Assembly (NCBI GenBank): GCA_017475035.1
Contig: JAFVGK010000152.1
Location: forward strand, 1 to 64,000
Direction of reading: 5' to 3'
DNA from: Blautia sp.
GTDB lineage: Bacteria; Bacillota; Clostridia; Lachnospirales; Lachnospiraceae
Length of the DNA stretch: 64,000 bases
Positions 22,961 to 62,991 of this stretch are shown here, piece after piece. Under the pieces are notes generated by a model. That model was not told the DNA's origin. It did not search any database and saw nothing but the letters and a program-made list of their open reading frames with translations. Position 1 is the first letter of the stretch. Each line of letters begins with the position of its first letter. The position numbers were made by a program, and so were the translations under genes.

Positions 22961-23035
22961 TTGGCTCAATGTCTTCGGATGCCGCTTCTGCCGCTTCGGA
23001 AGCCGAGCTGCAGAAGCGGCAGAAGCAGTCTCCCA
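22961..23035 (-). repeat. Dispersed repeat family C, copy 1
   Basis: Minus-strand reading: hairpin arms GCTTCTGCCGCTTC and its complement, then GGCATCCGAAGACATTGAGC. This is the only copy not followed by a same-strand ribosome site and gene; it lies between two plus-strand genes. Confidence 0.7.
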
Positions 23036-23096
23036 TACATAGCGCTGCACATATCAACCAGGCAATTTCCCCAAATCAGGAAAGGAAACAAAACCC

Positions 23097-23927
23097 ATGC
23101 TATGGAATAAGTCAAAGAATTTCTGCGATATCAGTCCTACAACCTATGCCATCTCACAGCAAAAGGAGATCATCAAACGCCATCTGCAGGATTTTCTCGG
23201 AAAAGACCGATATGCTGCCTCCCACACGCAGGAGAAGCTTCCTGTCATTGTTGCTTCCCATGACTCCCGGCTTCTCAAGCGTGGTCCCGGTATCGACCCT
23301 GTTTTGCAGGAAAATAAGGCGGTAAATATCCGGCTTGCATGCAAGGAGCTCAACGGCCTGATCATCCATCCGGGCGAAACCTTTTCCTTTTGGAAAACCG
23401 TGGGAAAAACCTCCCGTTCCAGAGGATATATGGACGGGCGCGTGATCGTTGCCGGCCAGCTGCAGCCGGGCATCGGCGGAGGCTTATGCAATCTGTCCAA
23501 TACGATTCACCTTCTGATTCTGGAAAGCCCCCTGACTGTCACGGAATTTCACCATCATTCCGATGCCCTGGCTCCCGATGAAGGTCCCAGGGTTCCTTTC
23601 AGCACCGGCACCAGCGTCAGCTACAACAATATCGATTACCGGGTGCGCAACGACACGGATCAGGATTTCCAGCTTCTTCTGTGGTGTGACGAAGACCGCC
23701 TGTACGGAGAGCTCCGGTCAGAAAAAGAAATACCCTGGGCTTACCGGCTGGTGGAAGAAGGACATCATTTCCATCAGGAAGGAGAAAAATACTATCGTAT
23801 CTCAAAAATATACCGGGAAACCATAGAAAAGGACACCCAAAAAGTCATAGAAAAAAAGCTCCTTCTGGATAATCATTCCGAGGTCATGTACGACCCCGCC
23901 CTGATCCCGAAGGAGCTGATCCGCTGA
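23097..23927 (+). CDS. VanW family protein
   Basis: 276 residues, a YoaR/VanW-type domain with NGLIIHPGETFSFWKTVG, GRVIVAGQLQPGIGGGLCN, LSNTIHLLILESPL and a histidine cluster FHHHSDAL. VanW occurs in some vancomycin-resistance clusters and many clostridial genomes, but its activity is not established. There is no signal peptide or membrane helix here, unlike the larger wall-associated forms. AGGAAAGGA lies upstream of ATG 23097. It follows yqeG on the same strand after a family C repeat. Confidence 0.9.
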   Translation: MLWNKSKNFCDISPTTYAISQQKEIIKRHLQDFLGKDRYAASHTQEKLPVIVASHDSRLLKRGPGIDPVLQENKAVNIRLACKELNGLIIHPGETFSFWKTVGKTSRSRGYMDGRVIVAGQLQPGIGGGLCNLSNTIHLLILESPLTVTEFHHHSDALAPDEGPRVPFSTGTSVSYNNIDYRVRNDTDQDFQLLLWCDEDRLYGELRSEKEIPWAYRLVEEGHHFHQEGEKYYRISKIYRETIEKDTQKVIEKKLLLDNHSEVMYDPALIPKELIR

Positions 23928-23943
23928 TGAAAAGAGCTGCGGC

Positions 23944-32399: not shown

Positions 32400-33260
32400 T
32401 CAGTTCAGCTGATATACCTCAGCGCTCTGCCTGCCAAAGCTCAAAGCAGCTTCATGGCTGTCAAAGAAAATGTCCACATGCCCGTACGGTGTACCGCGAT
32501 CCTCGACCGTATAGACAACGCCATTGATCAACAGTTGTGTTCCGAACGGTACGCCATACATGGCAACGGTCCTGCCTGCGGTCGGAGTCGTACCGGAAGC
32601 CGTGACGTTGTCCGCCACGCCGCAGCACTGGGCGCAGCTGCAGTAGCCGGTCAAAGTGAAGGTTCCGAGATACGTCGCATTATCCGTGGAATACGAGGCA
32701 TTTTTGCTGCTGTCGTCGTAGTCGTCCTCTTCATCGTAATCATAGTCGTCGTACTCATCTTCATAATCATCGTAATAGCTGTCGTCGTCATCATAATCAT
32801 CGTAATAACTGTCGTCATCGTCGTCATAATCATCGTAATAGCTGTCGTCATCATCATAATCATAATAACTGTCATCGTCATCATAATCGTAATCGTCGTA
32901 ATCGTCGTAATCGTCATCATAATCATAATCATCGTCATAGTAATCGTCATCATAATCGTAATCACCGTCATACTCATATGTATAACCATCTACCGTGACG
33001 CATTCCGCCCATACGTAATAACAGTCTCCCTTATGATAGATCTCATACCAGCCCTCATCCGGACCATATGTGATCAGAACATCCTCGCCCGGCTCCAGAA
33101 TATCCACAATCTCGGCCTTCTTAGAGGCATATGACCGGACATTCACCTCATCATTAATCACACCCGTTTTGGCGAAAACGGTCAATGAGCAGAGTAAAAT
33201 CCCCGCCAGCATCCCTGCCGTGAGCAGAAGGCTTCGGTAAAACTGTTTATTTGTACGCAT
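32400..33260 (-). CDS. Secreted SH3b and 3D-domain wall protein with Asp/Tyr linker
   Basis: 286 residues. Signal peptide MRTNKQFYRSLLLTAGMLAG...VFA, SH3_3 domain (about 33-90: GVINDEVNVRSYASKKAEIV, DVLITYGPDEGWYEIYHKGD), then about 100 residues almost only Asp and Tyr, then a 3D domain (about 205-286) with FTLTGYCSCAQCCG, TPTAGRTVAM, VEDRGTPYGHVDIFF and EAALSFG. The 3D domain is named for three Asp residues, as in Rpf-like and MltA-type murein hydrolases (YocH, YuiC). It probably cleaves or binds peptidoglycan. GGAGA precedes ATG 33260. Confidence 0.9.
   Translation of the reverse strand: MRTNKQFYRSLLLTAGMLAGILLCSLTVFAKTGVINDEVNVRSYASKKAEIVDILEPGEDVLITYGPDEGWYEIYHKGDCYYVWAECVTVDGYTYEYDGDYDYDDDYYDDDYDYDDDYDDYDDYDYDDDDSYYDYDDDDSYYDDYDDDDDSYYDDYDDDDSYYDDYEDEYDDYDYDEEDDYDDSSKNASYSTDNATYLGTFTLTGYCSCAQCCGVADNVTASGTTPTAGRTVAMYGVPFGTQLLINGVVYTVEDRGTPYGHVDIFFDSHEAALSFGRQSAEVYQLN
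32718..32965 (-). repeat. Asp/Tyr-coding low-complexity repeat
   Basis: Tandem units of the form DDDSYYDDYD coded mainly by GAC/GAT and TAC/TAT. The opposite strand reads as spurious IIVVVI stretches. Confidence 0.85.
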
Positions 33261-34527: not shown

Positions 34528-35627
34528 CAGTCCACCTCCTCACATAACGCAGTCCTGTGCGTTGACTCAATGTCTTCGGATGACGTTTTTGCTGCTTCGG
34601 CAGTTGGGCTGCCCGGGACAGAATCAGTCTCCTTTTCTTCTGCTTCCGTTTTCTTTCCGCCCTTTGTTTCAGAAGCGTACTGTTCCGGCCGGACACTTTG
34701 GGAAGACATTCCTCCCGCCCCCGCCCTGTGCTGATATTTTCTTTTCAGCAGCGGAATCCGGCTCTTAAAGTAAGGACCGGCAATCGCGATAATCACGATC
34801 ACAGCAGAAACGAGCCGCAGCATATAAGCCGGAAGGTTAAACCGCAGAGCGATCGTATAGACCAGCCGGAATACAAAAGCGCCTGCCACAGCGCCGACCG
34901 CCCTGGTACCGATCCTGCCGCGTCCCAGAAACGCCCTGCCGATCAGCAGAGACGCCAGCGCGATCGTAACCATGCCCTGGCCGATATCGATATTCACCGA
35001 CTTTCTGGACTGTGCAAGAAGGCAGCCGGAAAGCCCTGTAAATGAATTTGAGATACAAAGGCCAACGATCGTGGTAAATGCCGGGTTAATGGAAGAAGCC
35101 CGAACCATATCCGGGTTGTCCCCCGTCGCCCGGATCGCAAGTCCCAGCCTTGTCTGCAGGAACAGGACGAGAAAGACGATGACCAGAACGACAAAAATCA
35201 GAGCGATCACAGTCCGATACTGGCCGGAAAGGAAGGTTCCTTCACAGAGGCCCTTCATTTTCGTGAAAATGGTATCCGTCTTGTTCATGTTCAGCAGAGA
35301 GGCATTTCCCATGAGGGCGATATTGACGGAATACAGTCCCGTATTCACGATAATCCCGGCAAGCAGGGAGTTAATCCCCATCTTTGTCTGGAGAAACGCC
35401 GTCACAAAGCCTGAGCACACGCCCGCCCCCATGGCTGCGGGAATGGACAGGTACGGATGTCCGGAAATGGCAACCACCGCCCCCACAACGGCGCCCAGGG
35501 TAAAGCAGCCGTCCGTGGAAAGATCGCAGACATTCAGCATCGTATAGCTCAGAAACAGGGCCAATACAGTCAGCGCACTGATCAGCCCAAGCTCCAGCGC
35601 TGTTTGAATTAATCCGATGATTTCCAT
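34527..35627 (-). CDS. ABC transporter permease (COG4120, TrpY-like) with repeat-derived tail
   Basis: 366 residues. The first 295 or so hold about eight membrane helices of the BPD_transp_2 type (LGLISALTVLALFLSYTML, DGCFTLGAVVGAVVA, LLAGIIVNTGLYSVNIALMG, TRLGLAIRATGDNP). The remaining 70 residues are hydrophilic and low complexity, and the last part (AEAAKTSSEDIESTHRTAL) is encoded by family C repeat 2, so the natural C-terminus was extended by the repeat. It forms the channel for the neighbouring binding protein. ATG 35627 is seven bases from the upstream stop. Confidence 0.92.
   Translation of the reverse strand: MEIIGLIQTALELGLISALTVLALFLSYTMLNVCDLSTDGCFTLGAVVGAVVAISGHPYLSIPAAMGAGVCSGFVTAFLQTKMGINSLLAGIIVNTGLYSVNIALMGNASLLNMNKTDTIFTKMKGLCEGTFLSGQYRTVIALIFVVLVIVFLVLFLQTRLGLAIRATGDNPDMVRASSINPAFTTIVGLCISNSFTGLSGCLLAQSRKSVNIDIGQGMVTIALASLLIGRAFLGRGRIGTRAVGAVAGAFVFRLVYTIALRFNLPAYMLRLVSAVIVIIAIAGPYFKSRIPLLKRKYQHRAGAGGMSSQSVRPEQYASETKGGKKTEAEEKETDSVPGSPTAEAAKTSSEDIESTHRTALCEEVD
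34540..34640 (-). repeat. Dispersed repeat family C, copy 2
   Basis: Reads on the minus strand as hairpin (CTGTCCCGGGCAGCCC...GCAGCAAAAACGTC side arms), GTCATCCGAAGACATTGAG with variation (ACGTCATCCGAAGACATTGA), then the GAGGAGG site of the ATPase gene 34527. Confidence 0.7.
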
Positions 35628-47475: not shown

Positions 47476-47493
47476 CCCCTCACCTCCTCCCTA

Positions 47494-47545
47494 AACGAAG
47501 TTATGTACGCTGACTCAATGTCCACGGATGACTATTCTTCAAAAG
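47494..47545 (-). repeat. Dispersed repeat family C, copy 3 (partial)
   Basis: Minus reading GTCATCCGTGGACATTGAG, CGTACATAACTTCGTTTAGG, then GGAGGAGGTGAGGGGATG of oppD. The hairpin half is missing where oppC coding begins. Confidence 0.65.
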
Positions 47546-48419: not shown

Positions 48420-48439
48420 CTTTTATGATATTCCTCCCC

Positions 48440-48535
48440 TTCATAAAGCAGTTTTTTGCATGCTGACTCTATGTATTTCCGGATGACGATTTTGCTGCCC
48501 CGGCAATCGGGACGCCTCAGGCAAAATCATTCTCC
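48440..48535 (-). repeat. Dispersed repeat family C, copy 4
   Basis: Hairpin arms GATTTTGCCTGAGG / ...GGGGCAGCAAAATC flanking GTCCCGATTGC, then GTCATCCGGAAATACATAGA and ribosome site of oppC. The hairpin overlaps the last bases of oppB. Confidence 0.7.
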
Positions 48536-49483
48536 TCTTCCCTCATTGCCGTAACGGATCCTCGGGTCAATCAAGGCATACACGATATCCACCGCCAGAT
48601 TCATCAACGCAAAAAAGGTCACCAGCATCAGGGTAATGCCCTGCACCACCGGATAATCGGAAGCCTTGATCCCAGAGATCAGCACATCCCCGATGCCGCC
48701 CAGGGCAAACACATTTTCCACAAGCACAGCCCCGACGATCATTGTCCCGATCTGGATGCTGGCTACGGTGATTACGGGAATCAACGTGTTTTTCAGACAA
48801 TGCTTCAATACCACCTTATGAAAGGGCAGACCTTTGGCGACAGCAGCTGCGGCGTAATCCGACTGCAGCTGTGTAATCATATTATTGCGGGTAGTTCTTG
48901 CAATCAAGGCTACCATGCTGAATCCTAAAGCCAGGGAAGGCAGGAAAAGATATCTGAGATTTTCGAGAAATGTTTTTCCTGTACCGAAGGAAGGAAACCA
49001 TCGCAGACGAAGGGCAAAGATCAGACTCAGCACAATCCCTGTCAGAAACACGGGAGATGCGACCAAGACCAGAGACAGAACAGACAATGCACGATCCAGA
49101 AGAGTGTTTCGCTTTACCGCGCAGATGATCCCAATGGGCAAAGCCAGAGCCAAAGCCAGCACGGTACTCATGAAAACAAGCTGCAGCGTTGTCGGAAGGC
49201 GGTCAGCGATTAATGTGGTCACCGGCTGTTTTTTGTCAAAGCTGTCTCCCAGATCTCCTCTCACCGCCCCGGTAATCCAGATCCCATACTGCTCCGGCAA
49301 AGACTTATCAAGATGGTACTGCCTGATCAATGCCGCCCTCGTCTCTTCGCTGATCCTTCTTCCCCGCGTCATAGAAGCGATCGGGTCGGAAGGCGTCATC
49401 CGGATCAGAACAAAAATCAGCACCGACGCTGCAAGAAGGACGAGAATCATCTGTGCAAGGCGCCTGACAATAAAAGAAAACAT
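48527..49483 (-). CDS. oppB: Oligopeptide ABC transporter permease (OppB type)
   Basis: 318 residues. OppB_N opening RRLAQMILVLLAASVLIFVL, then LIRQYHLDKSLPEQYGIWIT and the EAA-like loop AAAVAKGLPFHKVVLKHCLKN. About six helices. First gene of the opp operon; GGGGGAGGGAAGAG precedes the ATG. The leader includes a promoter-proximal hairpin (49549-49585). Confidence 0.93.
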   Translation of the reverse strand: MFSFIVRRLAQMILVLLAASVLIFVLIRMTPSDPIASMTRGRRISEETRAALIRQYHLDKSLPEQYGIWITGAVRGDLGDSFDKKQPVTTLIADRLPTTLQLVFMSTVLALALALPIGIICAVKRNTLLDRALSVLSLVLVASPVFLTGIVLSLIFALRLRWFPSFGTGKTFLENLRYLFLPSLALGFSMVALIARTTRNNMITQLQSDYAAAAVAKGLPFHKVVLKHCLKNTLIPVITVASIQIGTMIVGAVLVENVFALGGIGDVLISGIKASDYPVVQGITLMLVTFFALMNLAVDIVYALIDPRIRYGNEGRGE

Positions 49484-49633: not shown

Positions 49634-49639
49634 TACCTT

Positions 49640-51354: not shown

Positions 51355-51371
51355 CATGAAAGCTCCTATAC

Positions 51372-51466
51372 TCGTCCGCATTCCTACGCCGGCATTACCC
51401 GGATCAGGTATGAGGGATCAGGTTGAACTTTACCTGTCTCAGCCGAATTTCATCAGCACCCCTTGC
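51372..51466 (-). promoter_or_regulatory. TPP (thiamine pyrophosphate) riboswitch
   Basis: Minus strand shows GGGGTGCTGATG, GGCTGAGA, AACCTGATCCC, ACCTGATCCGGGTAATGCC and GGCGTAGGAATGCGGACG, all THI-box blocks in order. TPP binding should favour the following terminator and lower thiT-tatD expression. Confidence 0.95.
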
Positions 51467-51658
51467 AACTCAGATTGTATTGTAATCCTTTGTCTTGAAG
51501 AAAGCAAGCTTTTTTTTTCCAGAGCCGTTCCTTTATGAGAAATCCAGGTGTTACTATTCACGCCTTTTTGGGTAAGCGGGAGGATAAACTCCGCCTTATT
51601 AGCGGATCCTCCTTTTTTTCTAACCCTGAAAATCCTGAATTGTAAAGAAACTCTGATG

Positions 51659-51688
51659 TTGACCGTTCAAGCCCCTTCGCGTTACAAT
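51659..51688 (+). promoter_or_regulatory. Promoter of WYL regulator
   Basis: TTGACC (51659-51664), 18-bp spacer, TACAAT (51683-51688). Confidence 0.6.
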
Positions 51689-51755
51689 GATTTCAAAGAC
51701 AACTCCTGAAAGCGAAAGGTAACTGTGTTTTGTGTTCATAAAAGGAAATCAAAAT

Positions 51756-52736
51756 ATGGCCGAAGAGAGAATGGGGATTTTATATCTGATGAGAATCTTA
51801 CTCGAAGAGACAGATCCCGCACATCCGATGAATGCCGCGCAATTGATGGAACGGATGACAAACCGGTACAGCATAGGCTGTGACCGCAAGACGCTTTATG
51901 CCAACATCCGGCGCCTGCAGGAATTTGGCCTGGATATCGGGCAAAAGAAAGGAAGAAGCTTCGGCTATTATATCAAAAGCAGAGATTTCGACCTCCCGGA
52001 ATTGAAGCTTCTTGTGGATGCCGTGCAATCTTCAAGATTTATTACCAAAGAAAGATCTGAAGAGTTGATCAAAAAGCTGGAGAAACAGACCAGCCAGGAA
52101 AACGCAAGACAGCTGCAGCGGCAGGTCTTTATCTATAACCGGGTCAAAGCGGACAATAACGCGATTTATGAAAATGTCGACACGATCCATGCCGCCATCC
52201 ACGAAAACCGGCAGATCCTGTTCCGATATTGTGAATGGAGCATGGAGAAAAAGCTGGTCCAGAAAAAAAACGGCGCAGACTATCGGGTTTCCCCCTGGGC
52301 TCTGGCCTGGACAGACGAGAAGTACTATCTCGTGGCCTACGATGCGGCGGCGGGCATCATCAAGCATTATCGCGTCGATAAAATGCAGCAGGTCCGTCTT
52401 GATGAAAAAGAGCGTATGGGAAAAGAGCATTTCGATCATTTTGACCTGGCAGCTTATTCCCGGAAAACCTTTGGCATGTACGGAGGCAAAGATGTCCGGC
52501 TGAAGCTTCAGGCCAGCCGGGAACTGGCCGGCGTGGTCATTGACCGTTTTGGCCAGGACGTGATGATGATCCCGCAGAAGGATGGGACGTTTTCCTTTAC
52601 CGTCACTGTCCAGATCAGCCCCCAGTTCTTCGGCTGGCTGACCGGCATCGGAAAGGGAATCCGTATCCTCTGGCCCAAAGACGCCGCCGAAGCCTATCAG
52701 GCTTATCTGCGGGACATCCTGGAATCTTTATCCTGA
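51756..52736 (+). CDS. WYL-domain transcriptional regulator
   Basis: 326 residues. N-terminal winged HTH (about 1-75; CDRKTLYANIRRLQEFGLDI is the recognition region), then a WYL domain with VSPWALAWTDEKYYLVAYD (Tyr in place of the name-giving Trp) and HYRVDKMQQVRLDE, then a WCX-like C-terminus. WYL proteins sense small ligands or nucleic acids and control stress, defence or metabolism genes. AAAGGA precedes ATG 51756. It faces away from thiT; target unknown. Confidence 0.9.
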   Translation: MAEERMGILYLMRILLEETDPAHPMNAAQLMERMTNRYSIGCDRKTLYANIRRLQEFGLDIGQKKGRSFGYYIKSRDFDLPELKLLVDAVQSSRFITKERSEELIKKLEKQTSQENARQLQRQVFIYNRVKADNNAIYENVDTIHAAIHENRQILFRYCEWSMEKKLVQKKNGADYRVSPWALAWTDEKYYLVAYDAAAGIIKHYRVDKMQQVRLDEKERMGKEHFDHFDLAAYSRKTFGMYGGKDVRLKLQASRELAGVVIDRFGQDVMMIPQKDGTFSFTVTVQISPQFFGWLTGIGKGIRILWPKDAAEAYQAYLRDILESLS

Positions 52737-52910
52737 CATATACTCATGAACGCAATTATACTCCCGTTTTATTTTGAACACACCGAACGTTCACTCGTTA
52801 TATGATAATCGTATCGGGAGACATTTACGTGATCGAGTATAATTTACGGACAAAACGATAAACGATATTCCCGCGAAACAGATTGCCGGGGATTTTTATC
52901 CGAATATGCT

Positions 52911-54014
52911 TCAGGTCCGGATCTTCAGCTGATCCTGCACGTCCCCTCCACCAAAAACAAGGAATTCCCGGATACTCAGACTTACCTCTCCACCGACCCT
53001 GTGATTCCGATAAGCGTACCCGTCCGCAATCACCCGGACCTCTGCCTTGCCTACCCGGATCCGCAGATCTGTAACGTCTCCGAGATAATACATTCTTTCA
53101 ATCTTTCCACGGATACCGCCGTTTGAACCGGCCTGATCTCCGTTCCCGTTCTTTCCGTCCTCAAGCAGAATGTTCTCCGGCCGTATGGCAATCTGCACGG
53201 CTCCGGTCTGTTTCATTTCCGGATAAGAAAGCTCTGCTTCCCAGTCTGTGACATGGACGCTCCCGTCCTTCGCCGTCCCCCGGAAGAACTCTACCTTTCC
53301 CAGGAAATCCGCGACAAAGGGATTCTCCGGGTGATTATATATCTCCTCCGGAGAGCCCGACTGCTGGACGATGCCGTTGTTGATCAGAAAGATCCTGTCG
53401 CTCATCGCCATGGCTTCTGTCTGGTCATGGGTTACATAAACTACGGTAATACCAAGGGATTTTGTAATATCTTTAATCTCAAAGCGCATGGTTTCCCTTA
53501 ACTTTGCGTCCAGATTCGACAACGGTTCATCCAGAAGCAAAAGCTTCGGCCGGGCAAGCAAGGCCCTTGCCAGAGCCACTCTCTGCTGCTGTCCGCCGGA
53601 AAGCTGGTTCGGCAGCCGGTCCGCGTACTGGGAAAGATGCACCACCTCCAGGATATGGGTAACCCGCTCCTTAATCTCCGCTTTGGCAGTCTTTTTGATC
53701 TGCAATGGATAAGCAACATTGTTAAACACCGTCATGTGCGGCCAGACCGCATATGACTGGAAAACCATGCCGATATCTCTTTGTTCCGGGGCAACAAAGG
53801 TCTTCGGCCCGGACACCATCCTTTCATCAATCCAGATCTCACCGGTTGTAGGAATCTCAAAACCCGCAATCATTCTGAGTATTGTCGTTTTCCCACAGCC
53901 GGAGGGTCCCAGCAGAGTGACAAATTCACCGTCCTGAAACACTTCATTAAATTCTTTGAGCACCTGGACATTTTCATAGCTCTTTGTCAGATTCTTAATG
54001 GTAACGCTGGACAT
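52911..54014 (-). CDS. ABC transporter ATP-binding protein, Fe3+/FbpC type
   Basis: 367 residues. Walker A LGPSGCGKTTILRMIAG, signature QLSGGQQQRVALARALL, Walker B LLLLDEPLSNLDAKLRE, switch VVYVTHDQTEAMAM, then a TOBE domain with IAIRPENILLEDG. ATG 54014 with GGGAGGAGGC is clearly the start; upstream in-frame sequence is family C repeat. It is the last gene of an SBP-permease-ATPase operon resembling ferric-ion or other small-solute importers. Confidence 0.93.
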   Translation of the reverse strand: MSSVTIKNLTKSYENVQVLKEFNEVFQDGEFVTLLGPSGCGKTTILRMIAGFEIPTTGEIWIDERMVSGPKTFVAPEQRDIGMVFQSYAVWPHMTVFNNVAYPLQIKKTAKAEIKERVTHILEVVHLSQYADRLPNQLSGGQQQRVALARALLARPKLLLLDEPLSNLDAKLRETMRFEIKDITKSLGITVVYVTHDQTEAMAMSDRIFLINNGIVQQSGSPEEIYNHPENPFVADFLGKVEFFRGTAKDGSVHVTDWEAELSYPEMKQTGAVQIAIRPENILLEDGKNGNGDQAGSNGGIRGKIERMYYLGDVTDLRIRVGKAEVRVIADGYAYRNHRVGGEVSLSIREFLVFGGGDVQDQLKIRT

Positions 54015-54024
54015 AGCCGCCTCC

Positions 54025-54092
54025 TCCCAAAACGAAGCTTTGTACTTTGACTCAATATTTTCGGATGACGATTTGCTGTCGTAAAAATCAGT
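54025..54092 (-). repeat. Dispersed repeat family C, copy 5
   Basis: GCAAATCGTCATCCGAAAAT, ATTGAGTCAAAGTACAAAGC, TTCGTTTTGGGAGGAGGC. Shortened hairpin (GATTTTTACGACAGCAAATC). Confidence 0.7.
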
Positions 54093-54097
54093 CTCCT

Positions 54098-56542
54098 TTA
54101 AATCGAGAATTCTCCCTTCGTCAAACGGTTCAGCACAAAGTTCAAAACAACAACGACCAGCAGAATGCCCGCAGCCATCGCGCACGCCTGGGGCTGGCTG
54201 GTAAACGTCCAGTACTGGAACAGCTGGAAGCCGATCGTCTTTGTATTTGTCGAATACAGAAGGGTCGTCATCGAAAGCTCATAAAAGCTCGGTATAAAGA
54301 TCAAAAACCATCCCGCCGCAATCGATGGGAAAATCAACGGCCCCGTAATCCGGAACATTGTCCGCAGCCAGCTTGCGCCGGAAATCTGCGAGCATTCCTC
54401 CAGAGAAACATGTATCTGAGACATCGCCGAAACCACCGTACGCATACCCATCATCAGATATTTGATCAGGTAGGCAATGATCAGAATCGAGGCCGTCCCG
54501 TAAATATTTATGCCGAACTTTCCGCGCATTGTCATGATCAGACCCAGGGCAATAACAACGGACGGGGTTCCGGAGCCCAGTGTGATCAAAAAGTCCGGAA
54601 TCTTTCTCCCCCGGATCTTTGTCCTCTGAAGCAGGTAGCTCATGGTACAGGAAATCACGATTCCAATGGTCGCCGTGATAATTCCGAAAATCAGGGAATT
54701 CTTCATGCACATCAGCGTCTCATTTCTCGCGAGAGCTTTCCACTGTGTGAGCGTAAAATTCCCCTTCGTCCAGAGCGTCTTTCCCACATCTGTCTTAAAG
54801 GACGTGGACAGAACCGTGAGAAACGGAATCACGACGGCAATCAGGGCAAACAACGTAACCAGCAGGGTAAGCGGCCAGCGCCACTTGCGCAAATCCACAA
54901 TATTGGGCTTTGTCGATTTGCCGGACACCGTGATATATTGCCTTTTTGCGACAACGAAATCGGAAACATACAGCACAAAAATCGCGATAACGATCAGAAA
55001 TACCGCCAGTCCTGTGGCGTCATTGATTCCCTGTACGCCAAGGCCATTGTATTCGATAATCCTTGTCGTAACCGTATGTATGTTTCCCGGCGCCCCGATA
55101 ATCGACGGAATTCCGTAACAGCTCGCGGCACAGACAAATACCAGCAGGGCGCCGGCGATCAGCGACGGGGTCATCATGGGCAAAGTGATGCGCAGTACGG
55201 TCGTAAAGGGACTCGCGCCTGAAACCCTCGATGCTTCCTCCAGGGAAGGATCCATCTTTTCCATGGATCTGGAAATCGTAATAAACGCATAGGGAAAATA
55301 AAAGGTTGTCAGTACCCAGATCAATCCGCCCAGAGAATAAATATTTAACGGTCCCTGGGAAATGTTCAGGTGAAACAGCCGGCGTATCAGCAGATTGATG
55401 GTTCCCACGTTTTTATTCAGCAGCCGCAGCCAGGCCATGGCTCCGACATAAGGCGGCACCATATAGGTAAGGACAAACAAGGAGCGGAAAAATTTCCGGC
55501 CGTACATGTTTGTCCTGCCCACCAGCCAGGCCAGCGGAAAGGCAATCAATGTTCCCAGGGCCATGGTGCTGGTGGCAGCGATCGTCGTATTGGTCAGAGC
55601 CTGCCAGTTCATCTTATAGGTATACAGGCGGCGGAAGGTCTCCAGGGAAAAGCTTCCCTCCGGGAAAAACGCTTTCACGACCATATAGATGAGAGGCAGC
55701 AGCTGAAAGAGAAGCAGAAAATCCACAATCACAAGGATCAGGATCCACTTAAAATCCATCCTCCAGCTCCGGTCCGCCTTCAGCAGGAAAAAGAGCAGCA
55801 GCGTGTCCAGAAGCAGCAAAAGTCCAAAAAGCACTACCGTGCGTCCATGGCGGATGACCCATGCGCTGACCGGGGAAATCTCCCCCGTCACCACCTGACT
55901 CATCACCTCGACCGCGCCTTCACCCTTCCCAACTGCGCGGGTAAAGGCAAGAGAGGTATCCTTGTTCAAGACCGTGGCGTTTTCGTTGGAAAAAGCCAGA
56001 AACGCCTGCATCAGCATGGCCGTATCCGCCCCGGTCAGGGCGGGAATCTCAGAGAGCACCGGGTCTGTATCCACCTCTTCTTTCGACGCCAGAAGCTTAA
56101 GCATATGATCCTCGGCTTCCTCCCGGTTTTTAACCGCGGCCAGGGATTTTCTCTGGGAACTCGATATTTTCTTTCTGGAATAAGAATAGGTCATGGAAAG
56201 CAGCTTCCAGATTTGCGGATCTGAATATTCCTCCAGCCCGGCAATCTCACAGCCCCATTCATCTGCCAGCAGCGTTCTCGCCGTATCAGCGCAGCCCGCC
56301 TGCACCGCCTCATCTGCCCGGGACAAAGCCGGCGCAATCACATTTTTATACAATGCGTCCGCTTCTTTTCCAAGAGCAAGCGCCTGACTGAAGGCATCAT
56401 CCGTAGAAAAAGAGGAGCTTCCAGCCGTGCGGATCCCATTCACTCCAAAGGCTGTCAGGAAGACCGAAAAAGCAAGAAAAACTCCAAGGAAGATAAGAAT
56501 AACGATTTTGCCGCGGTTCACCTGCGGCCTTGCCTGATTCAT
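54098..56542 (-). CDS. Fused ABC permease (FbpB-like) with extra N-terminal external domain
   Basis: 814 residues. Residues 1-240 are not part of the usual permease: a membrane helix (12-33), an external helical domain rich in Ala/Glu/Asp (about 40-225), and a second helix (VVLFGLLLLLDTLLLFFLLK). Residues 265-814 hold two BPD_transp_1 halves with about 12 helices, each with an EAA loop (LEEASRVSGASPFTTVLRIT; LEECSQISGASWLRTMFRIT). The fused two-half layout fits Fe3+ FbpB. The external domain may help dock the binding protein. The upstream hairpin 56590-56637 separates it from the SBP gene. Confidence 0.92.
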   Translation of the reverse strand: MNQARPQVNRGKIVILIFLGVFLAFSVFLTAFGVNGIRTAGSSSFSTDDAFSQALALGKEADALYKNVIAPALSRADEAVQAGCADTARTLLADEWGCEIAGLEEYSDPQIWKLLSMTYSYSRKKISSSQRKSLAAVKNREEAEDHMLKLLASKEEVDTDPVLSEIPALTGADTAMLMQAFLAFSNENATVLNKDTSLAFTRAVGKGEGAVEVMSQVVTGEISPVSAWVIRHGRTVVLFGLLLLLDTLLLFFLLKADRSWRMDFKWILILVIVDFLLLFQLLPLIYMVVKAFFPEGSFSLETFRRLYTYKMNWQALTNTTIAATSTMALGTLIAFPLAWLVGRTNMYGRKFFRSLFVLTYMVPPYVGAMAWLRLLNKNVGTINLLIRRLFHLNISQGPLNIYSLGGLIWVLTTFYFPYAFITISRSMEKMDPSLEEASRVSGASPFTTVLRITLPMMTPSLIAGALLVFVCAASCYGIPSIIGAPGNIHTVTTRIIEYNGLGVQGINDATGLAVFLIVIAIFVLYVSDFVVAKRQYITVSGKSTKPNIVDLRKWRWPLTLLVTLFALIAVVIPFLTVLSTSFKTDVGKTLWTKGNFTLTQWKALARNETLMCMKNSLIFGIITATIGIVISCTMSYLLQRTKIRGRKIPDFLITLGSGTPSVVIALGLIMTMRGKFGINIYGTASILIIAYLIKYLMMGMRTVVSAMSQIHVSLEECSQISGASWLRTMFRITGPLIFPSIAAGWFLIFIPSFYELSMTTLLYSTNTKTIGFQLFQYWTFTSQPQACAMAAGILLVVVVLNFVLNRLTKGEFSI

Positions 56543-56583
56543 ACGTTCACCTCACAGTGTATTTTTTCTATCCTTACCGGAAA

Positions 56584-56637
56584 AAAGATAAGGGAATGGT
56601 CAACCTGTCAGTGCGCTGACAGGAAAACCATCCCCTT
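56584..56637 (-). terminator. Intergenic hairpin after binding-protein gene
   Basis: Arms AAGGGAATGGT / ACCATCCCCTT around an inner CCTGTCAG/CTGACAGG hairpin; minus strand ends TATCTTTTTT. Typical for reducing downstream expression relative to the SBP. Confidence 0.7.
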
Positions 56638-56682
56638 GTCGTTAGAATCTCATCTCATCCGAGTTCCGGCTTCCATAAATGA

Positions 56683-57729
56683 TTATTCAGAGATGGTGAC
56701 CGCTTCCTGGAATCTGGTACGGATCTCTTCACGGTCATGATAGCACCGCTCCCAGTCGACTCCGATATCTTTGGAGATCAGTTCATCCGTATCGATGGAA
56801 TCATAAGGAACTTCCTTCATGCCGGCAAGAACGCTGTGCATATATCCCGCCAGGATATACTTCTGGCCGGCTTCGCTGAGGAACCATTTCGTAACGGCCT
56901 CGCAAGCCTCAAGATTCGCGTTTGCGCTCTTGTCCTCGGCGATAGTCATCACTGTGCTGGGAATCAGGATTACGCCGTCATCCGGATAAATGACCTCGAT
57001 CTTGGAGCCATCCTCCTTGCGGGCGCGCAGCACAGACTCTTCAAGAATCATGATCTCCTTGCATTCCCCTGTCTGAAGCTTTGCCAGAGCCGTGGAGCCG
57101 GACTCGATCATGACCTGGTTCTTCCCGAGGGCGTCAAAATACTCATATCCATACTTATCAGAAAGCGCGACAATCGCAGCCATCGCTGTGCCGGAGGTAA
57201 GCGGGTCGCTCATGGAAATCAGACCCTTCATGCTCTCATCCTCAGCAAACTCCTTAAACGTATGCGGTACCTCATCCTCGCCGTACAGCTCCGGATTGTA
57301 AGCAAGAACCATATTTAAGGTACGGGCCGGATACCAGTATCCTTCCTCATCATACTCAAAACGAAGCAATTCATCCGGATTCTCGATTTCCATCTGCTCC
57401 AGATAACCATACTCCTTCAGCTCCAGGGAATAAGCCGGCTCCGCAACCAGCAGCATATCACAGCTGAGGACGCCGTTTAAGTCATCCCCCATCTCCCCCG
57501 CCAGCTTCGTCTGCAGAGAACCTGTCCCGCCATAGAAAAACTCTACCTCAAGATTTGGAAACTCTTCCTTCAAAGCCTCTGTCATCATATCAATCGCAAA
57601 CTGATACATCGAGGTATAGATCACGATCTTTCCTTCAATATCCTCGTTGTCTGCCTCCATCGCGGACGTCGTGACAGCCCCATGGGTCAGAAGCAGCATA
57701 GCGAGCGCAAATGATAACAATCTTTTCAT
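56683..57729 (-). CDS. Extracellular solute-binding protein (Fe3+-type, SBP family 1)
   Basis: 348 residues. Signal MKRLLSFALAMLLLTHGAVT... ends SAMEA, without a lipobox Cys. The mature fold: KIVIYTSMYQFAIDMMTEAL, NLEVEFFYGGTGSLQTKLAG, PARTLNMVLAYNPELYGED and DPLTSGTAMAAIVALSDKYG. Resembles FbpA/AfuA ferric-binding proteins; anion or phosphonate ligands are other options. GGGAGGGC precedes ATG 57729. First gene of the operon with fused permease and ATPase. Confidence 0.92.
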   Translation of the reverse strand: MKRLLSFALAMLLLTHGAVTTSAMEADNEDIEGKIVIYTSMYQFAIDMMTEALKEEFPNLEVEFFYGGTGSLQTKLAGEMGDDLNGVLSCDMLLVAEPAYSLELKEYGYLEQMEIENPDELLRFEYDEEGYWYPARTLNMVLAYNPELYGEDEVPHTFKEFAEDESMKGLISMSDPLTSGTAMAAIVALSDKYGYEYFDALGKNQVMIESGSTALAKLQTGECKEIMILEESVLRARKEDGSKIEVIYPDDGVILIPSTVMTIAEDKSANANLEACEAVTKWFLSEAGQKYILAGYMHSVLAGMKEVPYDSIDTDELISKDIGVDWERCYHDREEIRTRFQEAVTISE

Positions 57730-57806
57730 TTTGATGCCCTCCCAAGCATAACGTGAATAACAGTTGGATTCCCGCAAAGCTGAATGAGCCTTTGCTTCCG
57801 GTTAAA

Positions 57807-57835
57807 ATATTATCATGCTCATATTTTTTTGTCAA
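57807..57835 (-). promoter_or_regulatory. Promoter of Fe3+-type ABC operon
   Basis: Minus strand TTGACA (57830-57835), 17-bp spacer, TAATAT (57807-57812). Confidence 0.75.
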
Positions 57836-57857
57836 TTGAAGTGCTTTCCTTTTTATG

Positions 57858-58019
57858 CTATGATTGCATCGACAAAATCGTCATCCGAAGACATTGAAAC
57901 TTCATTTTGGGAGGAGACATATTTTGCCCACGGCTGCGTTTTTTGCAGGCGTGGCTGCAAAATAGGCATCCGTGACCATTGAGTCAAAGTACAAAACTTC
58001 GTTTTGAAAGGAGTTTTTC
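57858..58019 (+). repeat. Dispersed repeat family C, tandem copies 6a and 6b
   Basis: First ATGATTGCATCGACAAAA (family A tip) joined to TCGTCATCCGAAGACATTGA and CTTCATTTTGGGAGGAG. Then a hairpin ATTTTGCCCACGGCTGC ... GGCTGCAAAAT, GGCATCCGTGACCATTGAGT and ACTTCGTTTTGAAAGGAG before ATG 58022. Two partial units in tandem, both ending in a ribosome-site-like sequence. Confidence 0.75.
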
Positions 58020-58021
58020 AT

Positions 58022-58567
58022 ATGGAATTATATCAAGGCAGACCGGAAAGCACCGAAGGCAGGCTTCCCAGGGAAATACGAACCTATGATTTTCTTGACA
58101 GCCTGAAGATCCCGTACCTGCGGACAGACCACGAGCCGGCCAACAACATGGAAGCCTGCAACGAAATCGACGCGGTACTTGGCGTACTCATCTGCAAAAA
58201 CCTGTTTTTGTGCAACCGTCAGAAAACAAGTTTTTATCTTCTGATGATGCCCGGGGATAAAAAATTCAAAACCAAGGAGCTTTCGAGTCAGATCGGATCT
58301 GCCCGTCTCTCCTTTGCCGATCCGGATGCCATGCTCAGATACCTGGACATCGAGCCGGGCGCCGTGAGCATCATGGGACTCATGAATGACAAAAACCATG
58401 ACATTCAGCTTCTGATCGATGAGGATGTCCTCAAAGACGAATATCTGGGCTGCCACCCCTGCGTCTGTACCTCCAGTCTCAGGCTGAAAACAAAAGACGT
58501 GATTGACAAATATCTCCCGGCAACCGGGCATGCCTACCGCCTGGTTCACCTGGTCGGAGAGGATTAA
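58022..58567 (+). CDS. YbaK/ProX-type aminoacyl-tRNA deacylase
   Basis: 181 residues, YbaK/EbsC fold: IPYLRTDHEPANNMEACNEI, CKNLFLCNRQKTSFYLLMM, TKELSSQIGSARLSFADPD and DIEPGAVSIMGLMNDKNHDI. Related to free-standing ProXp/PrdX proteins that hydrolyse mischarged Ala- or Cys-tRNA(Pro). The catalytic Lys is plausibly in CKN. GAAAGGAG from a family C repeat is its ribosome site. Twenty-odd bases before the diguanylate cyclase gene, so they may be co-transcribed. Confidence 0.9.
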   Translation: MELYQGRPESTEGRLPREIRTYDFLDSLKIPYLRTDHEPANNMEACNEIDAVLGVLICKNLFLCNRQKTSFYLLMMPGDKKFKTKELSSQIGSARLSFADPDAMLRYLDIEPGAVSIMGLMNDKNHDIQLLIDEDVLKDEYLGCHPCVCTSSLRLKTKDVIDKYLPATGHAYRLVHLVGED

Positions 58568-58585
58568 CGCAAGAAAGGTACTGTT

Positions 58586-59716
58586 ATGAACCTTCAGGCT
58601 ACTATCACCGTCAATATCATCGGTGTTTTTCTGGCTGTCATCACCTGGGTCAACAGCCACATCGTCCGTGAAAGGCAATCGCTGGATGACATCCTCTTTT
58701 CCGTCATGCTGTTTATATCGGGTTCCTCCTGTATTGTCGAACCCATCACCTTTCTGATCGACGGCAGGGTCTTTCCGGGTGCTTTCCTGATCAGCCGTGT
58801 GACAAATACCTGGCTTTATCTGGGCAGCAGCTCCATCTCCCTGATCTGGTGCCTTTTTGTGGATCACAAGCTGTATCAGAACACCAGGCGGCTTCGCAGG
58901 GTTTATGCCCCGGCCATCGCTGTCGGTGTCATCGGCTGGCTCGCCACTTTAGGGAACGTCTGGGGAAATTACTTTTTCTCCTTTGACGCACAGAATACGT
59001 ATCACAGGGAGCCATATGGCTATATTATGTTCGCATTGCCGATCATATATTCTGTCATCAGCATTATAACTGTTTACAAAGCCAGAAAAGAATTCGGTGA
59101 CCTTCGGTTTTTCCCGGTCTGGTCTTTTTTAACCCCGTTTTTCCTGGGCATGGGCGTCCAGACTCTGGTTTATGGCATCTCTGTGGCCTGGTGCTCTGTG
59201 TCCATAGGACTTGCGGTTCTTTTTATGAGCCTTCAGAACGAACTGGTCTATCGGGATCCCCTGACCGGACTTTATAATCGCAATTACCTGAACTATGTCC
59301 TGAAATCCACCGGCTGGAATCGTGCAGGCCGTCATGGCGGCATCATGATTGATCTGGATTTCTTCAAAATCATCAACGATACCTATGGCCATACCAGCGG
59401 AGACAATGCTCTCTGTGACGTCGCAGACCTGCTGCAGGCCTGCCTTCCGGAAAAAAGCCTTGCTTTCCGCTATGCCGGGGATGAGTTTATCCTGCTTTTT
59501 GACGCGTCTGAAGAGGAGGAAATCCTTGCCGTCGAGAACCGGATCCAGGCTTCCCTCGATGATTTTAACGCGCAAAAGAAACGGCCCTATCATTTGTCCC
59601 TGTCCATGGGGCACAGCTGCTTTCTTCCCGGCACCCACGACGCCGACAGTTTCCTGACAGCAATGGATAAGAGTATGTACGAAAACAAACGAAAGCATCA
59701 TGAGGCCGCAGAGTAA
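58586..59716 (+). CDS. Membrane GGDEF diguanylate cyclase
   Basis: 376 residues. About six or seven membrane helices in the first 205 residues, then a GGDEF domain (about 215-370): DPLTGLYNRNYLNY, GIMIDLDFFKIINDTYGHTS and active-site loop RYAGDEFILLF, where Ala replaces the first Gly; such AGDEF forms are often active. No RxxD inhibitory site is visible just upstream. Makes c-di-GMP from GTP; sensed signal unknown. The neighbouring tad genes make a surface-pilus link plausible but unproven. Confidence 0.92.
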   Translation: MNLQATITVNIIGVFLAVITWVNSHIVRERQSLDDILFSVMLFISGSSCIVEPITFLIDGRVFPGAFLISRVTNTWLYLGSSSISLIWCLFVDHKLYQNTRRLRRVYAPAIAVGVIGWLATLGNVWGNYFFSFDAQNTYHREPYGYIMFALPIIYSVISIITVYKARKEFGDLRFFPVWSFLTPFFLGMGVQTLVYGISVAWCSVSIGLAVLFMSLQNELVYRDPLTGLYNRNYLNYVLKSTGWNRAGRHGGIMIDLDFFKIINDTYGHTSGDNALCDVADLLQACLPEKSLAFRYAGDEFILLFDASEEEEILAVENRIQASLDDFNAQKKRPYHLSLSMGHSCFLPGTHDADSFLTAMDKSMYENKRKHHEAAE

Positions 59717-59741
59717 TGCAGCGGCAAAAGCTGTCTCCTGC

Positions 59742-60407
59742 TTATTCAGCTGCTGCGCCGGAGTCAGCTGACGCAGCCGGTTCTTTCAGCGAAATCTTTA
59801 AATCCGGCGCAAGCGAGCAGGGAATCACATCCTCAAAAGAATACAGGTGCAGACCCGTATCCTCTCTCTCCCGGTCAAATATGAAGACCGCGATGTTTTT
59901 CTGTTCCGGGTAAATAAGCCAGTATTCCCGCACGCCGGCAAGGTAATATTTATTCAGCTTAATCACATCATCCCTGCCCCGCGACGAAGGCGACAGGATT
60001 TCCACCACCCAGTCCGGCGCGCCATGACATCCTTTTTCATCCAGCTTCCCGGTATCGCAGACCACAATCAGATCCGGTTCGAGATAAACCTTGTCATCGT
60101 CGAAAGGATAGACCGCAAAGGGTGGGATATAGACTTCACACTTGCTTCCGTGTGATTTCAGATAATGCGCCACCTGGAAAAACAGTTCCCCGTTAATCCT
60201 TTGATGCGTACGGGAGGGAGCCGCCATATAATAGATTTTTCCGTCAATCAGCTCCGCCCTGACTCCCTCCGGCAGCGCATAGATATCCTCTATTGTATAG
60301 ATTCTCTCCTGGGTTTTCCGCGCATATGCAGCCGCAGGTTCACAAATTCCCGGCATGTCTGAGCGACCGGCATTATTTTTCTTTGTCTCGTATAAATCCT
60401 GATGCAT
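59742..60407 (-). CDS. Uma2 family (DUF820) restriction-endonuclease-fold protein
   Basis: 221 residues from ATG 60407 (AGGAGG upstream in a family C repeat; in-frame sequence further up is the repeat). PD-(D/E)xK nuclease-like core: LEPDLIVVCDTGKLDEKG, APDWVVEILSPSSRGRDD, KYYLAGVREYWLIYPEQKN. Common in clostridia and cyanobacteria, function unknown. N-terminal AYARKTQERIYTIEDIYAL is typical. Confidence 0.88.
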   Translation of the reverse strand: MHQDLYETKKNNAGRSDMPGICEPAAAYARKTQERIYTIEDIYALPEGVRAELIDGKIYYMAAPSRTHQRINGELFFQVAHYLKSHGSKCEVYIPPFAVYPFDDDKVYLEPDLIVVCDTGKLDEKGCHGAPDWVVEILSPSSRGRDDVIKLNKYYLAGVREYWLIYPEQKNIAVFIFDREREDTGLHLYSFEDVIPCSLAPDLKISLKEPAASADSGAAAE

Positions 60408-60419
60408 ATTCCCACTTTC

Positions 60420-60510
60420 CTCCTGAAACGAAGCTTTGCAGGTTGACCCCATGTCTTCGGCTGACGATTTTGCGGCTCCGGCAGCCGGGGCTGCCGAAGG
60501 CAAAATCAGC
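60420..60510 (-). repeat. Dispersed repeat family C, copy 7
   Basis: Minus reading: GATTTTGCCTTCGGCAGCCC / ...GGAGCCGCAAAATC hairpin, GTCAGCCGAAGACATGGGGT, CAAAGCTTCGTTTCAGGAGG, then ATG 60407. Confidence 0.75.
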
Positions 60511-60596
60511 TTCCTGTATTATGCCCGTTTATTTGAGTATATTCTTTCTTTATTCTAGCACTTGCCTGGTAACTGTCAAGAAATCGTTTTTCCTTT

Positions 60597-61613
60597 TTAT
60601 GCCCCATAAAATCCCATAAATGCGGGAACCATAACGATGGCCATCACCACTGCCATCATCATAATCATGGGAAGAAGCAGCTTCGTCGAGGCAACCTCCC
60701 CGAGGATCCTCGCCTTTCTTTTTCTCTCATCCCAGGCTTCGATGGATTCCTTCTCCAGAAGCTCGCTCAGCTGCCGGCTCCCTTTCTGCAGATTCTGAAC
60801 CAGCAAAGTGGCAAGCGTCTTATATCTGACCTGCCCGCACCGCTCCCCGAACCGGTAATATGCTTCTGCTTCCGACATACCTCCATCCATCTCATAGCAG
60901 GTTGTCATCACTTCTTCATAAGCAATGCTGATCCTTTCTTCCTTCTTTTTCTGATAATCTCCTGCCATCTTATAAAAAGCATTTCTTACATTCATCCCCG
61001 CCTGAACAAGCAAAGTAAATTTCATAATCAGCTCGGGATATTCATACAGAAGCTGTTCCCTTCTCTTCTGCTCTGCCCCGGCCTGTTCCCTTCCCTTTAG
61101 AAGCAGCACCGCCGCGGCAGCGATCAGAAACATTCCCGCCAGAAATTCTCCGGAATGATCTGCCGGCCTGGTCCAGCGATATGTCTTTCCTTCCCATTCC
61201 GGCGGCAGATAATAATACTCTCCGTCCTCCATCGACAGGTTAAATTCCGTCATCATCTGGTCAAACGCCATTCTATCCTGTTCTTCTTCACTCGGTTCGT
61301 AAGGCGTCCCGGTCTCCTCTTTTTCCAGCTGCGGCACGTCGACCGTCACTTTAACCGGTTCTCCGCCGTCTATGGAAAGCATAAAGGTTTCATCGTAGGC
61401 GTCGTCCTCCCGCACCATCCGGAAATCCTCCGGAAGAGACGTATCCGCGGACTGCAGGGTTACGATCATTCCCAGGGCGTTTCCAGCAACTGCCACAAAC
61501 AAAAACAGTTTCCTGGTTTTCTCATCAAAATATTCTTTCCCGGGCAGCACCCCGGTCTGAAAGCCCAGAAAAGCTGCCGCCGTCAATAGAAAAATCATGA
61601 TATGCAGCATCAT
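60597..61613 (-). CDS. Type II secretion F-family protein, TadC-like
   Basis: 338 residues. N-terminal helix, external acidic region (LEKEETGTPYEPSEEEQD), a second membrane helix (AGMFLIAAAAVLLLKG), then the T2SSF core with LIMKFTLLVQAGMNVRNAF, RFGERCGQVRYKTLATLLVQ and C-terminal LPMIMMMAVVMAIVMVPAF. It is an inner-membrane platform of the Tad pilus together with TadB. It has a longer external N-terminal part than usual TadC. Follows tadB by about 108 bp. Confidence 0.88.
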   Translation of the reverse strand: MMLHIMIFLLTAAAFLGFQTGVLPGKEYFDEKTRKLFLFVAVAGNALGMIVTLQSADTSLPEDFRMVREDDAYDETFMLSIDGGEPVKVTVDVPQLEKEETGTPYEPSEEEQDRMAFDQMMTEFNLSMEDGEYYYLPPEWEGKTYRWTRPADHSGEFLAGMFLIAAAAVLLLKGREQAGAEQKRREQLLYEYPELIMKFTLLVQAGMNVRNAFYKMAGDYQKKKEERISIAYEEVMTTCYEMDGGMSEAEAYYRFGERCGQVRYKTLATLLVQNLQKGSRQLSELLEKESIEAWDERKRKARILGEVASTKLLLPMIMMMAVVMAIVMVPAFMGFYGA

Positions 61614-61720
61614 CTGTCAATCCACCTTCTTTCAAACTTTCCTGATTATTTACGCCGCACAGGCAGCATCATTCCGCAATAAATCAGTGAACATACTTTT
61701 TTTCAACGGTTCCTCAGCAA

Positions 61721-62671
61721 TCAGACTTCAATATCCACGATCCGTCTTCCCAGCCACCAGGAAAGAGCGTACACCCCCAGACAGGCGCTCATGACGCCGA
61801 CGCCCAGGGCATTGCCGTACAGCACATCCAGAAATCCCGGCGAGGTCAGCTTTAAGTACAGGATGATTCCGATCGGCATCATGCTCATGATCGACTGCTC
61901 GTACTTCTTGGCGCTGACCGTCGCCGCAATTTCCTTTTTCACCTCAATTTTGTCTCCCAGCATTCTTCCCACCTTTTGAAGAATCAGACTCATATCGCCT
62001 CCGGTACGTTTTGCGGTGTAAAACACGGCGGCGAAGTTTTCGATATCCTCCGCTCCTGTCCTGTTTCCCAGATCCATAAACAGATCTTCGATGGGCACGC
62101 TCAGATACAGCTGGTTTTCCATATAATGAAACTCCTCGAGAATATCGGTTCCGGAAGGATACAGCTTCTCCAGATCCCTCGTACAGGCGCAAAGAGCGTT
62201 TTCCACGGAATACCCTGCCTGAACCGCGATATTCAAGGCGACCAGCGCATCACGGAAATGTTCATTGATCAGCCGTTTCCTTCTTATCATACGGCTCATT
62301 CTCTCATGCCGTACATATAAAACAGCTGCCGGGATTACAATCAGCATCATATACAAAGACCTGTAAAACAGATAGTCCAGCAAAGCACAGGCAGCGAGAC
62401 ACTTTCCCAGGACTTCCGCCCACTCCCCGGCGGTAAAGACATACACATCATATCTGCGGGGTTCATCTCCATTCCTTTTATAGGATTCACCGGGAGTTTT
62501 TTCCCTCCCATCCGATTGCCTGATCCGGTCAGACCGGTTTCCTGTCCCTGAGGTTTTGTTATCCTCCTGCGGCCCTGCAGGAGGTGCCTTATGCCCGAAC
62601 AAAGAAGTAAATCCGGGAGTAATGCTCCCCTCTCTTTTTTTCTTTTCCTTGTTTTCTGTCTGACGCTTCAA
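61721..62671 (-). CDS. Type II secretion F-family protein, TadB-like
   Basis: 316 residues with a charged 65-residue N-terminus, then helices and the T2SSF core DALVALNIAVQAGYSVENAL, LYLSVPIEDLFMDLGNRTG, YTAKRTGGDMSLILQKVG. Pairs with TadC to form the Tad pilus platform. Start is TTG 62671 with AAGGAGG upstream inside a family C repeat. No tadA ATPase, pilin or prepilin peptidase gene is present nearby, so the pair is isolated. Confidence 0.86.
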   Translation of the reverse strand: MKRQTENKEKKKREGSITPGFTSLFGHKAPPAGPQEDNKTSGTGNRSDRIRQSDGREKTPGESYKRNGDEPRRYDVYVFTAGEWAEVLGKCLAACALLDYLFYRSLYMMLIVIPAAVLYVRHERMSRMIRRKRLINEHFRDALVALNIAVQAGYSVENALCACTRDLEKLYPSGTDILEEFHYMENQLYLSVPIEDLFMDLGNRTGAEDIENFAAVFYTAKRTGGDMSLILQKVGRMLGDKIEVKKEIAATVSAKKYEQSIMSMMPIGIILYLKLTSPGFLDVLYGNALGVGVMSACLGVYALSWWLGRRIVDIEV

Positions 62672-62991
62672 AATAATATTTACCTCCTTCCAAAACGGAA
62701 TTTTTACATTGACTGAATGTCTTCGGATGATGATTTTGCTGCTTTGTCAATTGGACTGGCGGAAACAAAATCGAAAAAACAAATCACAGTGGAAATCAGC
62801 AGATCAAAAGACTTGTGATCAGGAAGAAATGCCTCTACATAGAATAACCTGAATATACACCGGGGTATCAGCCATGTCTATGACAGATCTTGTCGAAATG
62901 TGGCAGATTTGATTTTTTGCTGTATAATCGCTAAATTTTCCGAATAAAATAAGCACAGGTTTGTGTATATTCGCCAAACCTGTGCTCCTTA
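62672..62991. other. Intergenic region with family C copy 8
   Basis: Family C at 62685-62775: GATTTTGTTTCCGCC / GCTTTGTCAAAATC-like arms, ATCATCCGAAGACATTCAGT, ribosome site of tadB. Beyond 62780 no feature is evident. Confidence 0.6.

Follow-up and report, generated by a model that had tools for sequence, protein, structure and literature searches.

A 64,000-nucleotide stretch of a gut-type Blautia sp. genome (GenBank assembly GCA_017475035.1, contig JAFVGK010000152.1, positions 1 to 64,000; hereafter the window) carries a short repeat that is very probably a mobile palindromic DNA element, non-autonomous, strand-specific and about 93 bp long, which inserts 3' of GGAG and regenerates a Shine-Dalgarno sequence. 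DNA that inserts directly ahead of a start codon usually damages the gene. This repeat seems at home just before starts, repairing the site on arrival, and the gene behind it stays readable. If this reading is true, the repeat is a natural selfish element that rewrites a genome's translation signals and the tails of its proteins, and its host is, beside Rickettsia, a further lineage in which palindromes insert in frame.

The repeat consists of a hairpin followed by a 23-nt core, then a second, small hairpin and a terminal GGAGGAG; the majority sequence of 69 copies is AGGAG ACTGATTTTGTCTTCGGCAGCCCAACTGCCGAAGCAGCAAAATC GTCATCCGAAGACATTGAGTCAACGTACAAAACTTCGTTnTGGGAGGAG. A profile search of the window finds nine copies across eight loci, seven on the minus strand and a tandem pair on the plus strand (57867-58013). 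The core, GTCATCCGAAGACATTGAG, occurs at seven places in the window at up to 4 mismatches, against a mean of 0.1 per mononucleotide-shuffled window (10 shuffles); an insertion interrupts the core of the copy at 48440, which was recovered by repeat and profile searches. A preliminary description of this DNA had reported eight loci that share a hairpin with arms GATTTTGC and GCAAAATC, a conserved block and GGAGG. All eight loci do carry the block. However, the exact arms occur together at just two of them (48440 and 60420), the locus at 57858 is two tandem copies, the hairpin is lost or shortened in the copies at 47494 and 54025 and in the first copy at 57858, and the copy at 22961 lacks its right end, including CTTCGTTT and GGAGG. 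Exact CTTCGTTT is found at 47494, 54025 and 60420; at 57858 it is the second copy that has it.

The genome of the window (G000; 5.08 Mb in 200 contigs, 93.6% complete, 5% contamination) holds 145 matches to the core at up to 3 mismatches, and the reversed control gives 0. We analysed 845 kb of it, comprising the window, the remainder of its contig and 34 other stretches mostly picked for holding core matches. Here a profile recovers 123 copies covering the core (E<1e-3), compared with 76 core seeds, from which we estimate some 235 copies in the genome by extrapolation (145 x 123/76). A covariance model gives at least 150 matches in this genome, and a query with a second hairpin type (type 2) gives 44, two being short pieces; 40 candidates were scored.

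The copies lie before genes. By our own simple open reading frame (ORF) caller, a same-strand start falls -5 to 20 nt from the GGAGGAG end in 72 of the 123 copies; in the same DNA the share is 1.0% for random positions, 3.9% for random intergenic ones and 6.5% (509/7872) for GGAG sites. The next gene is on the same strand for 117 of the 123; copy midpoints are intergenic in 108 cases, sense within a gene in 15 and antisense in 0. On the window's contig, the sole contig taken whole, a start lies directly behind 16 of 21 copies, or 16 of 145 predicted genes, so that about a tenth of its genes would owe their ribosome site to the repeat. Within the window the profile ends 6 to 15 nt 5' of a same-strand start codon at seven of the eight loci, the number given in the preliminary description; the exception is 22961. 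Its gene labels (ABC ATPase, oppD, oppC, FbpC-like, YbaK-like, Uma2 and tadB) agree with Pfam, which gives ABC ATPase, OppD-type ATPase with oligo_HPY, OppC-type permease, ABC_tran with TOBE_2, tRNA_edit (YbaK-like), Uma2 and T2SSF, the last below the curated cut-off. Outside the window, a copy precedes a UMP-kinase-like gene (AA_kinase in Pfam) that we read as PyrH. Position, and position only, argues for the earlier proposal that the block supplies the ribosome site, and translation presumably uses the new GGAGGAG. Three window copies also alter the gene upstream, two by containing its stop codon and one by forming its tail.

Empty orthologous sites indicate that the repeat is mobile, in agreement with what had been suggested earlier. 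In a UvrD-like helicase that we read as HelD, the insert is missing in 29 of 29 same-genus relatives read; the protein length fits 31 codons added behind ATG GAG in the presumed ancestral DNA. The linker of CobB measures 12-38 residues in 29 of 29 relatives read versus 126-134 in the protein of G000, an excess larger than its three copies account for. The permease/ATPase junction at 34527 is short and element-free in 13 of 13 relatives read. In the reverse direction, we looked in the 845 kb for 19 genes that lie behind copies in three other carriers (G062, G081 and G032); the three that could be placed at their starts are all element-free in G000. Tandem copies, in-frame copies in genes and the different sites occupied in other species point the same way.

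Nine copies within genes, and five more located at gene ends, are crossed by open frames. Besides the UvrD-like helicase, the hosts according to Pfam are CobB (three tandem copies), a permease, a DUF2264 protein and a fusion of 2-hydroxyglutaryl-CoA dehydratase D-component and BadF-type ATPase, in which two copies are read in two different frames. Of the three frames of the type-1 consensus two are open, which is not unusual for such a short sequence. In the permease at 34527-35627, 32 element-encoded residues precede the final VD. The same gene encodes about 30 additional C-terminal residues ahead of the element (window 34650-34740), and these too are missing in relatives.

The edges of the repeat are sharp. 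On the left (91 copies) the edge lies between GGAG, present at 82-90% per base, and ACTGATTTTG; the sequence 5' of it is near-random apart from an A-rich base or two. On the right (108 copies) the edge is TTTTG-GGAGGAG, followed by G or A and then A, as is GGAG in 264 ordinary ribosome sites. Fifteen neighbouring copy pairs are spaced 81-107 nt apart, and their joints are GGAG or GGAGGAG, as expected if a newcomer uses either of two overlapping GGAG. Terminal inverted repeats were not found: the left end matches the reversed right end at 8 of 15 positions at best, which 27% of shuffles equal.

We propose that the element inserts in a single orientation, directly 3' of GGAG, and brings GGAGGAG as its own last bases. 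The Shine-Dalgarno sequence would be the GGAG that best tolerates an insert, and copies would for this reason gather before genes. There the old GGAG would be kept at the left edge and the element's GGAGGAG would take over as ribosome site; close to its left end the element has a TGA that could terminate the upstream gene. At a GGAG inside a gene (often Glu-Glu codons), a 31-codon type-1 insert would add a peptide such as TDFVFGSPTAEAAKSSSEDIESTYKTSFWEE. The right end would re-offer GGAG sites, and later copies landing on them would give rise to tandem pairs. Movement is presumably as DNA, and GGAG is probably the true target, not merely a place where inserts survive. A bolder version, which we hold tentatively and are more inclined to doubt than to accept, sees in the repeat a class of Shine-Dalgarno-homing elements with novel machinery: the GGAGGAG end, the stop and the open frames would make insertion nearly harmless even in the most essential and densest parts of an operon, and in related genomes families with other hairpins would have taken over the same edges.

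The edges bear equally on a different explanation, in which the repeat spread without transposition, ribosome sites having recombined with one another through gene conversion or through segmental duplication of leaders. Most copies do end in ribosome-site-like purines, and no enzyme for the repeat was found in the genomes searched. Nevertheless, the left edge is as sharp as the right, copies sit mid-gene in HelD, CobB and others, and several unrelated hairpins have identical edges. We regard spread by recombination as very improbable.

The repeat family occurs in four of 64 same-genus genomes (G000, G062, G032 and G081), and the core pattern in none of the 24 genomes from other genera of the order. 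The exact right end is found, among GTDB representatives, at seven loci in three records, RUG12864 (five loci), RUG12865 and RUG12824, all titled uncultured Lachnospiraceae; the RUG prefix presumably refers to the rumen. Matches from RUG12865 and G032 are identical, as are those from RUG12824 and G081. RUG12864 (our G088) has 18 covariance-model matches, and three of its five contigs stop 62 to 66 bases past the match to the right end, as though the assembly had broken at near-identical copies. Four further draft genomes carry related elements whose hairpins differ and are re-matched. The exact core is absent from GTDB genome_contigs. We also considered a phage origin and rejected it, the exact core and the exact right end both being absent from IMG/VR. 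In two species a copy precedes the same gene (L122 in G081 and L113 in G032), whose N-terminus is GLYDPSFEHDNCGIGAIIDVEG and which we take to be glutamate-synthase-like; this is either an old common insertion or one target struck twice.

The hairpin invites another explanation. The preliminary description had raised an RNA that controls translation in cis or in trans, and a cis-regulatory leader is readily drawn: the left arm is complementary both to the right arm of the hairpin and to the core, and these alternative hairpins could gate the GGAGG and control translation of a regulon. Positioning before starts is as expected of such a leader. Moreover, arm and core are matched anew from one hairpin type to the next. 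RUG12864 has near-identical copies with another hairpin, and the core of these, CCGAGAACA, matches their own left arm TGTTCTCGG. Across six hairpin types, with segments chosen by eye, 44 of 54 arm-core pairs form, a number reached by 4 of 720 core permutations; type 3 fails to pair in this register (2/9).

Within type 1, by contrast, compensation is undetectable. In an alignment of 69 type-1 copies (74 rows minus three of type 2, one of type 3 and one that extends across the end of a locus), 86.0% of the cells of the main hairpin are paired versus 85.4 (sd 0.4) in shuffles, 38 of 500 of which reach the observed value. The corresponding figures are 75.9 versus 75.3 for the second hairpin (107 of 500) and 80.7 versus 81.0 for the left-arm/core pairing (410 of 500). 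All these percentages exceed slid controls, as any consensus-derived structure must. RNAalifold gives no structure for the 74 type-1 rows and a hairpin at -17.6 for 13 type-2 rows. Type-1 pairs are kept as in decaying inert copies, and the longer, well-matched stems of a few copies fit stems renewed in moving copies. Furthermore, copies without the hairpin, three of them in the window, still stand before genes, other copies lie inside genes, no function is common to the genes that follow window copies, and the family is restricted to few genomes of the genus. Rfam gives no match at the loci in the window, nor at E up to 10 in 47300-62900, which bears out the earlier impression that no named family fits. 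We consider a leader RNA improbable, and the proposed control of translation found no support. Of the two features to which the preliminary description had tied its proposal, enrichment before start codons is strong and compensation within the family is undetectable, though hairpin and core are re-matched between families. The double match of the left arm persists from family to family but is not preserved among a single family's old copies, so the moving form more likely requires it than host mRNA does.

A single-strand (Y1/HUH) transposase would explain the fixed orientation, the missing terminal inverted repeats and the GGAG at both edges of the proposed mobile element; we rate its involvement as possible, if doubtful. 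The known precedent is the repetitive extragenic palindrome (REP) with its RAYT, and in such a scheme a domesticated Y1 transposase would cut and paste the single-stranded hairpin beside GGAG. The repeat does have a hairpin directly behind a fixed tetranucleotide, and RAYT-like genes are present in two carriers, G081 and G032. However, Y1_Tnp is represented in G000 only by a fragment at a contig end, and no Y1 gene at all was found in G062 or G088; these three genomes are incomplete drafts, and all carrier genomes are drafts. Moreover, Y1 genes occur in 40 of the 64 genus genomes versus four for the element, no copy lies in the eight stretches that surround Y1 genes (the G000 fragment and seven RAYT-like genes), and the tag is GGAG, not GTAG. 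We think a REP/RAYT-like origin unlikely. A reverse transcriptase is found in three of five carriers, missing in two, and unlinked to the element. Inspection by eye showed no convincing IS608-like guide sequence. A half-matching copy in G081 (L234), considered as an autonomous form, proved to be a decayed copy before a dehydrogenase-like gene. One RAYT-like gene (L214 of G032, 296-1081) is flanked by its own short palindromes around AACCAGGG..., possibly a separate REP system.

Several known repeats offer parallels. Rickettsia palindromic elements (RPEs) are small palindromes between genes, unusually often in frame inside unrelated protein genes, with no known transposase (PMC10969869, PMC2229807, PMC3733652); they are 105-150 bp long and listed with terminal inverted repeats and a CGTC tag (PMC3733652). 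The present repeat is likewise both intergenic and in frame inside unrelated genes, with empty sites in HelD and CobB relatives, whereas it is about 93 bp long, lacks terminal inverted repeats, has a fixed insertion point behind GGAG and ends in a ribosome site. REPs of the GTAG class, served by RAYT/TnpA-REP, combine a tetranucleotide with a hairpin and occur in high copy as single or paired units, some of them in genes (PMC3733652, PMC8266576). Our repeat shares with them the hairpin behind a conserved tetranucleotide, the high copy number and the single and paired units. It differs in its GGAG, in a unit of about 93 bp with a second conserved half, in preceding starts rather than trailing genes and in having no linked RAYT. 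For CGTC REPs, published stems are 8-9 bp, loops 4-5 nt and the tail CCA-like (PMC3733652). Here the likeness is that no dedicated transposase is known and that AAAATCGTCAT sits at the foot of the type-1 hairpin; by eye, comparing consensus with published description, the present stem is 16 bp and CGTC is absent in types 2 and 4, which have AGTC and CGGGTC at that place. BOX, RUP, ERIC and other repeats resembling miniature inverted-repeat transposable elements (MITEs) are also small, interspersed and non-autonomous and can alter expression or form ORFs, but the present repeat has no terminal inverted repeats, and neither an end nor a target that is a ribosome site is described for them in the passages covered of PMC3049150 and PMC2229807. 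The repeat works like REP, RPE and MITE repeats, but in our tests lacks the GTAG tag, the RAYT linkage, the CGTC stem and the terminal inverted repeats. In the literature covered, which includes passages of PMC3049150, PMC10969869, PMC3733652, PMC8266576 and PMC2229807 and leaves out subscription papers, we found no account of a repeat that ends in or homes to a ribosome site; a term search of PMC2817692 also gave no hit.

A number of points weigh against a mobile element that targets GGAG. No mobilising enzyme is linked to the repeat in the genomes searched, and no within-species polymorphism of copies was seen. The relatives used for empty sites are about 70% identical, with insertion points exact by protein length only, and one of the three reverse-direction empty sites is a 28% match. 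For 51 of the 123 copies no start follows in the next 20 nt, some being the first of a tandem and some inside genes; the start counts depend on a simple ORF caller and on stretches mostly selected for copies. The upstream gene stops inside 15 of the 123 copies, five of them near full length, a count that includes left-shortened copies with an extrapolated left limit. Type 2 is open in one frame only, and one read-through ORF is just 53 residues long. Finally, GGAG stands at both edges, yet deviations from it on the two sides are uncorrelated (Fisher p 0.25), so that GGAG may be a target duplication or the element's own.

Table 1 Copies of the repeat in the window, with the genes behind and upstream of them
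Position	Strand	Copy	Gene behind, for which the copy would form the ribosome site	Upstream gene
22953..23035	-	Intact hairpin, right end lost	No same-strand gene
34536..34634	-	Full length	ABC ATPase, 33742-34527	Copy doubles as in-frame C-terminal tail ETDSVPGSPTAEAAKTSSEDIESTHRTALCEE of permease gene 34527-35627
47484..47541	-	Left-shortened	OppD-type, 46495-47475	TAG stop of OppC-type gene 47532-48419 inside copy
48438..48537	-	Full length, core insertion	OppC-type, 47532-48419	TGA stop of permease gene 48527-49483 inside left end of copy
54021..54099	-	Hairpin with internal deletion; left limit by eye	ABC_tran/TOBE_2, 52911-54014
57867..57916	+	First, left-shortened member of tandem pair; joined to TATGATTGCATCGACAAAA, with which a separate MITE-like repeat ends
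57911..58013	+	Second tandem member, type-2 hairpin (GCCCACGGC...)	YbaK-like, 58022-58567
60417..60516	-	Full length	Uma2, 59742-60407
62683..62772	-	Without left GGAGAC edge	TadB-like (T2SSF), 61721-62671

The window contains other repeats and one further RNA. Rfam RF01699 ('Clostridiales-1 RNA') matches 7339-7536, within a feature at 7312-7535, with further matches at 8768-8871, 40015-40144 and 2-143. The feature looks like a MITE: its ends ATGATTGCATCGACAAAAG and CTTTTGTCGCCTGAATCAT are near inverted repeats, and a 225-nt query gives 42 matched pieces in the 845 kb. It is the end of this MITE-like repeat that is fused to the first tandem copy at the 57858 locus. An array of 18- and 24-bp direct repeats occupies 14414-15103 in the ORF region 14252-15076, and a low-complexity repeat at 32688-32987, probably of acidic/aromatic codons, lies within the ORF 32400-33260. 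On the minus strand, Rfam places a thiamine pyrophosphate (TPP) riboswitch at 51364-51473.

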